Shown here: positions 1 to 2,004 of the stretch, piece by piece
Layout of the letters: the number at the start of each line of letters is the position of its first letter
Position numbering within the stretch: the stretch's first letter is position 1
Source: Bacteroidales bacterium
GTDB taxonomy: Bacteria > Bacteroidota > Bacteroidia > Bacteroidales > UBA932
Reading direction: 5' to 3'
NCBI GenBank assembly: GCA_017619655.1
Contig: JAFZRV010000010.1
Span: 26,495 to 90,494 of the forward strand
DNA: 64,000 nt
Notes under the pieces: generated by a model
Told to the model about the DNA's origin: nothing
The model's database searches: none
Seen by the model: the letters and a program-made list of their open reading frames with translations, nothing else
Program-made: the position numbers and the translations under genes

Positions 1-212
1 TCGATGACGCGCAGGAAATCCGAAGCGGGCATGTCCTTGACCTCGGAATTGACGCGGCAGTCGCTGCCGCAGTGGATGCAGGCGGCGTTGCAGCGCAGGG
101 TGCACTCCCAGAAGAGCTGCCGGAGGCGGTGCTCTTCAATCCGTTTATCCTGAAGCTTGGCAAAGAGTTCGAGTTTCAGCCGCTTGCCCGGGCCGACGTG
201 TTTCCCGGTCAT
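1..212 (-). CDS. Radical SAM enzyme of an rSAM/lipoprotein system (N-terminal part, cut by window edge)
   Basis: Only about the first 70 residues are in the window; the gene continues past position 1. Translation of the minus strand from the ATG at 212 gives a basic N-terminus followed by WECTLRCNAACIHCGSDC, which holds the CX3CX2C motif that binds the radical SAM 4Fe-4S cluster, with an extra downstream Cys. Its start overlaps the stop of the upstream lipoprotein gene by four bases (ATGA), so the two are probably translationally coupled. A radical SAM gene directly behind a dedicated lipoprotein matches the family pair annotated as 'radical SAM enzyme, rSAM/lipoprotein system' plus 'radical SAM-associated putative lipoprotein' in Bacteroidales. 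The reaction is unknown. The identification rests on the motif, the coupling and the partner; the C-terminal half, where auxiliary clusters would lie, cannot be seen. Confidence 0.85.
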   Translation of the reverse strand, partial: MTGKHVGPGKRLKLELFAKLQDKRIEEHRLRQLFWECTLRCNAACIHCGSDCRVNSEVKDMPASDFLRVI

Positions 213-700
213 TTCTTTTTCAGTTTGACGGTGGGAACATCCACTTTGGCACTTCCGGAGTACCAGGGATTCTTGTCCTGCTTGCTCTTTTCGAACTTGA
301 TGTCTACGAGGGTCGTGTTGCTTTCAAAATCGCCGCCGTTCGCAGGACCGTCTGAATCGTCGAACTGGATCTTGACCTGCGGATAGGGGAAATGCTGTCT
401 GTCAAAGAAATAGGTTCCCTTTTCGTCGGTCTTGAGCAAGACGCCGAAAGGATCGGAGCCGTATGGGGTGCCGGGGCTTCCTTGATAAATGCCGTAGAGG
501 CTGATGTCGATGTTGGGAATCGGATTGCCTTTTTCGTCAACAACCTTGCCCTTGACGGAATAGTGGGCCGTCGGGGTGCCATACATCAACATCCCCTTGA
601 AAGGATCGTCTTCGTTGTTGACTTCACTGCAACTGCCGATGCCCAGCAGGGTCAGCAGCAAGGTGAAAAAGCCGAGGCGGCGGGGTTTGCGGATTTTCAT
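209..700 (-). CDS. Radical SAM-associated putative lipoprotein
   Basis: A 163-residue protein starting at the ATG at 700. A basic hydrophobic leader ends in the lipobox-like IGSC with Cys24, so it is predicted to be lipidated and exported. Residues about 50-110 (VKGKVVDEKGNPIPNIDISLYG and on) resemble the carboxypeptidase-regulatory-like beta-sandwich common in Bacteroidota surface proteins. The C-terminus is Lys-rich. It overlaps the preceding mini-lipoprotein by four bases and the following radical SAM gene by four bases, so all three form one translational chain. By family context it is the putative partner or substrate of the radical SAM enzyme, but no modification or function is established. 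Because radical SAM enzymes are cytoplasmic, any modification would have to precede export. Confidence 0.8.
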   Translation of the reverse strand: MKIRKPRRLGFFTLLLTLLGIGSCSEVNNEDDPFKGMLMYGTPTAHYSVKGKVVDEKGNPIPNIDISLYGIYQGSPGTPYGSDPFGVLLKTDEKGTYFFDRQHFPYPQVKIQFDDSDGPANGGDFESNTTLVDIKFEKSKQDKNPWYSGSAKVDVPTVKLKKK

Positions 701-852
701 GGCATCAATTCGGGTTGGGTGGGGATGAGCTCTTCCTGCGCCGGCTTCTCCGGATCGCCTTTTGTGACGCGTTCCGGCAATACGATATCCCCGCAGCCCG
801 CTGCCAGAAGCAGCGTCAGCAGAAGGAGGATACAAGCCATTTTCGTTTTCAT
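697..852 (-). CDS. 51-residue mini-lipoprotein
   Basis: A short frame from the ATG at 852 encodes a 51-residue protein with a hydrophobic leader ending in LAAGC (Cys20), a clear lipobox. The mature part is only about 31 residues, Pro- and Glu-rich, with no further Cys. The stop codon overlaps the start of the next lipoprotein (ATGA), which supports the start and its membership in the operon. I recognise no family. It could be a small structural lipoprotein, a precursor peptide for the neighbouring radical SAM enzyme, or a leader whose translation feeds the downstream gene. The coupling is visible; the role is not. Confidence 0.65.
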   Translation of the reverse strand: MKTKMACILLLLTLLLAAGCGDIVLPERVTKGDPEKPAQEELIPTQPELMP

Positions 853-893
853 ACGAAGGATAGATGCAGAAAAGAGGTGAAATGTTGCGTCGG

Positions 894-1781
894 TCAGTGC
901 AGATTTCTGTAGTTGTAGGCTTCCCGGACGGCGCCGTCCTGCATCACGAGCAGGACAGGGAAGGAGCCGTTGGTGATGCGAAGGAAGTCGGCGGGCTCGA
1001 TGAAGTGGACCTCGTCGGGCACCAAGCCGGTTTCTCCGAAAAAGGCGGTGGTGTCGGTGTCGGCGCCGCGCCCGAAGATCACGATGACCGGTGCGTCGGA
1101 AAACTCCCCGCGTGCCCGCAGGACCGCCAGCTTCTGGGCCGACATCTTGCAGAAGGGGCACTTGAGGCTGTAGAAGCAGACCACGCGCCCGCCGTCCGCG
1201 ACGGATGCGGGCAGGAGTTCCGTGTCGAGGGCTTCCTGCAACGCCTGCTCGTTGTACAGCGCGTGCCGGGCATACGCATCGTAGCGCCAGTTGTCGGGCG
1301 GCGAAACGATGAGCACCGTGGCCAGCGGCACGAGGACGGCCAGGGCCAGCCACAGGCCTTTGCGCTTCAAGCGGAAGGGCTGCATGCGCGCGCCGAACAG
1401 CAGCAGGGCCAGCATGCCCGCATTCTTGAGCAGGGATTGCGCGGGGTTGAGGTCAACCCATTCGCCGAAGCAGTGGCAGTTGTCCTGCCGTCCCGCGAGC
1501 AGCAGTCCCGCCAGGAAGAGCGAGAAGCCGCCCAGCATCGCCAAACTGCCCCAGAAGGCCAGCCGGGGATAAAAGTTCCCGATCAGCAGCAGGCCCAGGG
1601 CATACTCCGCCGCGATCACGAGGCGGGCCAGCAGGTAGCTGGCGCCGAGGCTGAACCAGCCGAAGCTGAAGAGGTACATCTCGAACGAATCGATGTCGAC
1701 CAGCTTGGCTGTGGCGGAGCATAAAAAAAGTATTCCGAGCAGAGCCCGGAATACATACTTGGCGATTTGTGTTGTTTTCAA
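894..1781 (-). CDS. MauE/DoxX-type membrane protein fused to a thioredoxin-like domain
   Basis: A 295-residue protein. Residues 1-135 form four membrane segments of the MauE/DoxX type, including the characteristic Cys-His-Cys-Phe-Gly at Cys102/Cys104. After a fifth hydrophobic segment (about 142-160), residues 165-295 look like a periplasmic thioredoxin fold with an active-site CPFC at Cys208/Cys211. Such proteins pass electrons from quinones or membrane dithiols to exported thiols. The only start that keeps the first membrane segment is TTG at 1781, one base after the stop of the upstream Cys-rich lipoprotein, so translation probably depends on coupling. The context suggests it maintains the redox state of the small lipoproteins encoded around it. 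The class is well supported; the substrate is an inference. Confidence 0.82.
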   Translation of the reverse strand: MKTTQIAKYVFRALLGILFLCSATAKLVDIDSFEMYLFSFGWFSLGASYLLARLVIAAEYALGLLLIGNFYPRLAFWGSLAMLGGFSLFLAGLLLAGRQDNCHCFGEWVDLNPAQSLLKNAGMLALLLFGARMQPFRLKRKGLWLALAVLVPLATVLIVSPPDNWRYDAYARHALYNEQALQEALDTELLPASVADGGRVVCFYSLKCPFCKMSAQKLAVLRARGEFSDAPVIVIFGRGADTDTTAFFGETGLVPDEVHFIEPADFLRITNGSFPVLLVMQDGAVREAYNYRNLH

Positions 1782-1782
1782 A

Positions 1783-2004
1783 TTAGAAAATAACCGGCGT
1801 GCACTTGGTCTCCACGGTCACGTTGATGACAGGAACGGAAACCTTCTTGTTGAAGTCGGAGCACTTGTCACCGTCTTCAATCTGGATCGACTCCTCGTAG
1901 ACGACTTCGCCATTGTAGCTGGCGGAGCATTCGCAGTTCTTCGAGCAGCTGGCGAGGGTGAAGATGCCGGCAGCGATCAGCAGGGTAAACAAAACTTTCT
2001 TCAT
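1783..2004 (-). CDS. Cysteine-rich 73-residue lipoprotein
   Basis: A 73-residue protein with a typical leader and lipobox LASC (Cys20). The mature part has four more Cys (24, 26, 48, 68), high for about 53 residues, and ends in Phe. The Cys pattern and the adjacent membrane-bound thioredoxin fusion suggest disulfide formation or isomerisation in the periplasm. It starts only 20 bases after the encoded CCA end of tRNA-Ser with no terminator between, so it is probably the first protein gene of the transcript that runs to the radical SAM gene. I recognise no named family. Confidence 0.75.
   Translation of the reverse strand: MKKVLFTLLIAAGIFTLASCSKNCECSASYNGEVVYEESIQIEDGDKCSDFNKKVSVPVINVTVETKCTPVIF

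Follow-up and report, generated by a model that had tools for sequence, protein, structure and literature searches.

Gene content of the locus

The 64,000-nucleotide stretch of Bacteroidales DNA analysed here (contig JAFZRV010000010.1 of assembly GCA_017619655.1, positions 26,495 to 90,494 of the forward strand; hereafter the window) opens in a run of five minus-strand genes, two of which, encoding a radical S-adenosylmethionine (SAM) enzyme of family TIGR04133 and a lipoprotein of family TIGR04134, form the pair that is the subject of this work. Contig C16, whose right part the window forms, belongs to a partial genome (1.40 Mb, 19 contigs, 60.65% complete). All five genes were located where the original prediction, made from the letters of the DNA, had described them as overlapping or nearly touching: neighbours overlap by 4 nt twice, the enzyme and TIGR04134 genes being one such pair, and are then separated by gaps of 41 nt and 1 nt. 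A tRNA-Ser (2025-2115) stands just ahead of where the run begins, and the genes downstream of it look, by sequence, like lysA and ffh. The features of the run are as follows.

Window 1..212, minus strand: 5′ end of the radical SAM/SPASM gene; TIGR04133, with Radical_SAM and SPASM Pfam matches.
Window 209..700, minus strand: partner lipoprotein of 163 aa; TIGR04134, with signal peptide, lipobox Cys24 and MYGTP.
Window 572..586, minus strand: codons M39-Y40-G41-T42-P43, the proposed XYGxP modification site, read from the sequence.
Window 697..852, minus strand: 51-aa mini-lipoprotein of GCGNIVL type, a probable truncated remnant judged to lie outside the system.
Window 894..1781, minus strand: MauE/DoxX membrane protein with a CPFC-containing C-terminus; PF07291, TTG start as listed.
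Window 1783..2004, minus strand: 73-aa Cys-rich lipoprotein, the first gene of a separate DoxX module.

Extension to the left, as the original prediction had advised, completed the enzyme at 358 aa with radical SAM and SPASM domains (L004:7631-8707, minus strand, contig C16). It scores 594.6 bits against TIGR04133 (curated cut-off 425), and the 163-aa lipoprotein scores 100.2 bits against TIGR04134 (cut-off 39.8). The earlier description of the pair as named in Bacteroidales but chemically undescribed agrees with what we found, both proteins lying above the curated cut-offs and no chemistry being found in the open literature; nor did a search of that literature, which left out most subscription journals, find any paper naming TIGR04133 or TIGR04134. 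The pair itself is a known family, from which that of the window does not differ in kind. Comparison with solved structures returned only general radical SAM relatives for the enzyme. The structural matches of the lipoprotein were weak, to transthyretin-like or dioxygenase folds, and it also has a weak carboxypeptidase-regulatory-like match (PF13620, E 0.0017, below the family cut-off). The same genome encodes a second TIGR04133 enzyme on contig C5 (468.8 bits), whose own lipoprotein scores 25.6 bits against TIGR04134, under the cut-off of 39.8.

Pairing of enzyme and lipoprotein across genomes

A profile search identified TIGR04133 in 90 of 199 genomes of the bacterial family, and the TIGR04133/TIGR04134 pair was present in 3 of 395 genomes sampled from the phylum, a count that includes the window's own genome. 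From 111 TIGR04133 matches, 106 were taken as wider stretches, which together with L004 and L005 gave 108 loci; fragments in G058 and G108 were left out, as was a second G167 copy that lies inside an included stretch. Assigned by the better-matching query, 71 loci are of the window type (class A) and 37 of the C5 type (class B). One protein counted in class B, that of L142, is a very divergent TIGR04133-like protein (305.7 bits, below the cut-off) with an Asn aligned at the third cluster Cys and no lipoprotein found nearby; it is possibly an inactive relative.

TIGR04134-like open reading frames (ORFs) occur in 101 of the 108 loci, with as many as four per locus. In 88 loci such an ORF lies directly upstream of the enzyme gene on the same strand within 150 nt, in line with the predicted radical SAM enzyme with a dedicated lipoprotein; it is divergent in 5 loci and downstream only in another 5, and 10 loci have none in these places (2 at contig edges, 3 with one ORF elsewhere). 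A pair was also observed on a Treponema saccharophilum plasmid (L144), where the lipoprotein carries SCYGMP and an annotated Mpi-family DNA invertase gene is near; its location suggests transfer between phyla. Parabacteroides distasonis, the source of L145, has the pair as well.

A conserved Tyr-Gly site behind the lipidated cysteine

The motif Y[GA]xP, counted anywhere in the ORF, is present in 130 of the 142 TIGR04134-like ORFs of these loci, as YGxP in 122 and as YAxP in 8. The lipobox Cys was identified by eye and with a simple script in 120 ORFs, the other 22 being excluded from the spacing counts, and the motif lies within 45 residues of that Cys in 108 of the 120 (class A, 79 of 87; class B, 29 of 33). 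In class A it stands 3 to 14 residues behind the Cys in 71 of 79 proteins, and in class B it follows the Cys immediately (C-Y-G) in 29 of 29 motif bearers. The residue X preceding the Tyr is accordingly Cys in class B, and in class A it is E (42), M (20), A (11) or L (6). None of 60 other lipoproteins encoded at these loci contains Y[GA]xP, and plain YG occurs in 6 of them; the background of YGxP over all called proteins is 0.43 per 1000 residues.

Conservation was calculated over 107 ORFs that pass filters requiring a lipobox Cys, the conservation of that Cys being partly by construction. Among the 84 class A proteins, the motif columns are conserved to 96% (Tyr), 94% (Pro) and 86% (Gly), and a Gly within the signal peptide to 95%; all 23 class B proteins share one Phe in the signal peptide and the stretch Q-A-C-Y-G. 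A separate alignment (A2) of 67 of the 84 class A proteins with three proteins of the own genome, the 17 omitted including four without the motif, was not used for conservation. Because the signal peptide is conserved beyond the needs of export, these data suggest that it is read by the enzyme as a leader.

We also considered lipoproteins from genomes with no enzyme. At least 18 genomes have a TIGR04134-like match and no TIGR04133 match, and the 14 sampled (all but G038, G071, G138 and G148 of these 18) yielded 17 stretches, one of them a C-terminal fragment, and so 16 readable N-termini. Among the matches listed, YGxP is missing from 13 of the 16, a comparison that is partly circular because the TIGR04134 model includes the motif; one of the 13 proteins has the motif far inside, and two have YG without the Pro. 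The three N-termini that have YGxP, two in G068 and one in G054, all lie at contig ends, and one of the G068 lipoproteins adjoins an enzyme fragment truncated where the contig stops. Two cases speak against a strict link between enzyme and motif: G067 encodes an MYGTP lipoprotein at this locus and has only a class B enzyme, and G031 has a YATP lipoprotein beside an enzyme remnant.

Two orphan TIGR04134 lipoproteins were observed in the window's own genome among the matches listed, one with MYGTP on contig C1 and one with MYGVP on contig C15. No enzyme adjoins either of them within the stretch read. The second is close to an apparent integrase gene, and both are possible substrates in trans.
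L244:4955-5434, plus strand: orphan TIGR04134 lipoprotein.
L006:6287-6778, plus strand: second orphan TIGR04134 lipoprotein.

Kinship of the enzyme with TIGR04103

PlpXY spliceases are described in two papers as excising tyramine at X-Y-G (PMC10533398, PMC11002830), and one of these assigns PlpX to IPR026482 (PMC11002830). The best plasmid match to the class B enzyme outside TIGR04133 is a Nostoc protein (29.4%, E 4e-35) that scores 853 bits against TIGR04103 and whose Nif11 precursor ends in LYGLPPELF. Judging by its gene architecture, TIGR04103 is probably the family of PlpX. Nif11-like ORFs were found at 77 of 80 related cyanobacterial TIGR04103 loci, and at 76 of these 77 at least one has XYG in its core.

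In FastTree phylogenies of 51 proteins (with 11 other SPASM proteins as outgroups) and of 58 proteins (with 18 outgroups, four of them AhbD/NirJ2-like), TIGR04133, TIGR04103, the GDL-motif maturases (TIGR03913) and an Agathobacter enzyme cluster together in both trees with support 1.0; the values are FastTree local supports, and the 18 outgroups, picked by similarity, are a thin sample. Support for TIGR04133 as a clade of its own is 0.85 in the first tree and 0.82 in the second. The four AhbD/NirJ2-like members were drawn from searches of the phylum for AhbD and NirJ2, which returned 6 proteins, below both cut-offs. Fourteen residues are common to TIGR04133 and TIGR04103 and rare outside, including G49, W204, H340, G252, G255, E258 and R262; the same rule applied to TIGR04133 and the AhbD/NirJ2-like set returns 5.

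On a plasmid of Agathobacter rectalis, a gut Firmicute, a short frame that lacks annotation lies just upstream of a radical SAM gene, and is a candidate for the precursor of a splicease-like system.
L146:3704-3916, plus strand: short unannotated frame ending in VMYGTGVRM.
With XYG partners at both the TIGR04103 and the Agathobacter loci, Tyr-Gly beside the enzyme recurs through the clade.

Proposed modification of the lipoprotein

We propose, with a confidence only slightly on the favourable side, that the TIGR04133 enzyme modifies its partner lipoprotein at Tyr-Gly before export, by chemistry like tyramine excision and with the signal peptide serving as leader. The system proper would consist of two genes, for the lipoprotein and the radical SAM/SPASM enzyme. 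The signal peptide and lipobox of the pre-lipoprotein would serve for recognition; in the cytosol, the enzyme would act on X-Y-[G/A]-x-P, which begins from 1 to about 20 residues after the Cys that is to be lipidated, and the modified protein would then be exported, lipidated and cleaved as an ordinary lipoprotein. The parts of this proposal differ in strength. The sequences themselves show the pairing, the conserved site, the absence of that site from other lipoproteins at these loci and the kinship with TIGR04103, whereas the substrate, the modified residues, the leader function and the timing ahead of export are inferred. Judged from sequence conservation, the 163-aa lipoprotein is very probably the substrate, with MYGTP as its site, and the likelihood that Tyr-Gly is the modified site stands well above even. 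Tyramine excision as the exact reaction is the least certain part and falls a little short of an even chance. Such excision at X-Y-G amounts to a loss of C8H9NO (−135.0757 Da). In its fullest form, a lipoprotein-dedicated protein-splicing radical SAM system in which tyramine is cut out, an electrophilic alpha-ketoamide is left near the lipid anchor and the lipidated Cys of class B becomes a beta-amino acid, the idea is tentative, and we would sooner expect it to fail than to hold.

Several observations weigh against the proposal. Five loci away from contig edges are without a recognisable lipoprotein, 8 of the 142 partner ORFs carry YA in place of YG, and 12 carry neither motif, although two of these are cut by contig ends and four (L056, L113, L123 and L134) keep YG but have no Pro at the expected position. 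Both enzymes of the genome score far under the TIGR04103 cut-off of 725 (window, 103.4 bits; C5, 136.9), the window enzyme scores slightly higher against AhbD (111) and TIGR04053 (105.5) than against TIGR04103, and the Nostoc TIGR04103 protein itself scores AhbD (154.1) and TIGR04133 (152.0) alike. No PlpY-like partner was detected in the 108 loci beyond one match of E 0.2 on the opposite strand, compared with 80 of 80 TIGR04103 loci, and family searches revealed no Nif11 or nitrile-hydratase-like leader, the window partner beginning with a signal peptide. Cys 37, 52, 180 and 250 of TIGR04133 are missing from the nine TIGR04103 sequences compared; C52 and C250 are common to TIGR04133 and the Agathobacter protein, and C250 is found in the AhbD/NirJ2-like set too. 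The reaction may therefore differ from that of TIGR04103. For PlpXY itself, XYG is described as insufficient alone, and just two of the tested FtsZ constructs as spliced (PMC10533398). By the tests run, the TIGR04133 enzyme falls outside the splicease family; our best guess is that it acts in the same way.

Alternative explanations

SPASM radical SAM relatives catalyse many different reactions, and the same lipoprotein might be modified at the same site by other chemistry, for example a crosslink from the Tyr to a neighbour, or oxidation or epimerisation at the tyrosine. The additional cysteines, the missing PlpY-like partner and the low TIGR04103 score are all consistent with this, as is the Pro at +3, which is so highly conserved in class A yet found as YGxP in just 30 of the 118 TIGR04103 precursors that contain YG. 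In the nearest clade sampled, however, the partners carry XYG, and residue X varies between and within the classes, as expected if only Tyr-Gly matters; on balance we find a different reaction possible but unlikely. A further explanation, which we consider improbable, is that Y[GA]xP has a role in structure or sorting, marking the start of a domain or acting in export, and that the target of the enzyme is a different residue or a different protein. The class A motif does stand just ahead of a domain start (consensus EYG.P.A....KG.V.D), the residue following the lipidated Cys is stated in a recent preprint to largely set sorting (PMC12636315), and the MYGTP lipoprotein of G067 occurs without a class A enzyme. 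Class B, on the other hand, retains CYGTP without the subsequent class A consensus, and the motif is missing from most N-termini of enzyme-less genomes, within the partial circularity noted above.

The original prediction had joined all five genes in one pathway, in which the small lipoproteins were candidate substrates and the DoxX fusion supplied the redox function. The tight spacing in the window favours this, as do three close relatives in which the DoxX and 73-aa genes are directly upstream of the pair (L050, L052 and L053, an arrangement shared with L004). The DoxX fusion is nonetheless present in 6 of the 108 TIGR04133 loci, all of one genus, the remaining two having it downstream (L049) or ~5 kb away on the opposite strand (L047), and the DoxX and 73-aa pair occurs mostly elsewhere in the genome or without the enzyme. 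The comparison of gene neighbourhoods that the original prediction had proposed, naming non-conservation as what would count against it, found none of the three additional genes conserved beside homologous radical SAM genes. We therefore rejected the five-gene pathway, to which we assign very little probability, and the likely substrate is instead the 163-aa lipoprotein at MYGTP.

The DoxX module and the two small lipoproteins

The DoxX fusion is found in 25 of the 199 family genomes and in 4 of 25 genera, with a lipoprotein of the 73-aa type, sometimes duplicated, directly upstream in 25 of 25 loci. In four genomes of the same genus (L240-L243) the two genes precede lysA and ffh with no radical SAM gene there, the genomes carrying a class B enzyme elsewhere. 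Since the two genes are found without a radical SAM gene at the locus, they constitute a module of their own and, as gene order indicates, are most likely bystanders here. The membrane protein scores 74.9 bits against MauE PF07291 (cut-off 27) and 51.4 bits, over residues 10-129 only, against the BT_3928 family, far from its cut-off of 250. It had been read as a membrane thioredoxin fusion: the CPFC motif is indeed at its C-terminus, but no thioredoxin family match was obtained. The module (window 894-2004; L240-L243, L257-L272) perhaps comprises a disulfide-handling membrane protein with a lipoprotein client.

Neither the 51-aa nor the 73-aa product matches any family above its cut-off. A search for the mini-lipoprotein across the 108 loci found only itself, and its sequence has no YG; as a candidate substrate it was rejected on both grounds. 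Its place is taken in L240 by a 144-aa lipoprotein that has GCGNIVL after the signal and is likewise without YG, and which the mini-lipoprotein matches over residues 1-25 (68%); a 150-aa lipoprotein in L053 is matched over 20 residues, and both longer proteins resemble TIGR04134. The alignments to the longer lipoproteins cover the signal peptide and lipobox only. Since this stretch is short and consists largely of signal peptide, it is likely but not certain that the mini-lipoprotein is what a truncation left of a longer lipoprotein.

Implications

With a precise site and a candidate reaction whose mass shift is defined, TIGR04133/TIGR04134 becomes a question for one experiment, and class B offers a natural set of proteins in which the site immediately adjoins the lipidated Cys. 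If the proposal is true, backbone splicing reaches envelope lipoproteins, beyond short secreted peptides. The tetrazine probes described for spliced proteins (PMC10533398) could then reveal such lipoproteins in cells. Protease inhibition is described for spliceotide products (PMC11117315), and spliced lipoproteins could by analogy act as covalent protease inhibitors anchored in the membrane. No paper of the open literature searched, subscription journals being mostly outside that search, reports the site, the leader-like role of the signal peptide, the splicease link or the separation of the DoxX module. Splicing is reportedly widespread according to Scott et al. in 2022, work that may already touch these families.

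Comparison with known systems

Of the systems compared, PlpXY/TIGR04103 belongs to the nearest sampled clade, with the GDL and Agathobacter enzymes, and resembles TIGR04133 in its shared residues and in the X-Y-G of its partner. The TIGR04103 loci, with a Nif11 precursor bearing XYG and a PlpY-like ORF, have the architecture described for PlpXY (PMC11002830, PMC10533398). The X-Y-G that characterizes spliceotide partners is seen in the TIGR04133 pair as YGxP in most partner ORFs and as MYGTP in the window, beside a published splice tag of PIRPLYGLPI (PMC10533398). TIGR04133 differs in having a lipoprotein partner with its own domain and the cysteines 37, 52, 180 and 250, and in having no PlpY-like protein or Nif11 leader.

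The GDL-motif maturases, with DUF1843 peptides as partners, fall in the same clade but differ from the TIGR04133 pair in that the peptides are short and in tandem, with no lipobox seen. Among the 8 DUF1843 peptides read, YG is present in four (RPYGPAM, MLYGGAM, KPYGVAI and QPYGAGI), YA in two and YM in two. The position of Y-G, Y-A or Y-M near the N-terminus (L147, L148 and L149; e.g., PMYMATM) suggests a target tyrosine there too.

The nearest printed concept in the open literature searched is that of the DAG-RiPPs (PMC12636315), a group of ribosomally synthesized and post-translationally modified peptides in which an enzyme modifies a precursor that then enters the lipoprotein pathway, as proposed here. 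The defining arrangement, a precursor with a lipoprotein signal beside a modifying enzyme, is found in the present system as a lipobox in 120 of 142 ORFs and an adjacent TIGR04133 gene in 88 of 108 loci. The term "radical SAM" occurs 0 times in the main text of that preprint, and the DAG-RiPPs differ in using an iron-dependent MNIO and a C-terminal motif (PMC12636315), whereas the putative site of TIGR04134 is near the lipid anchor.

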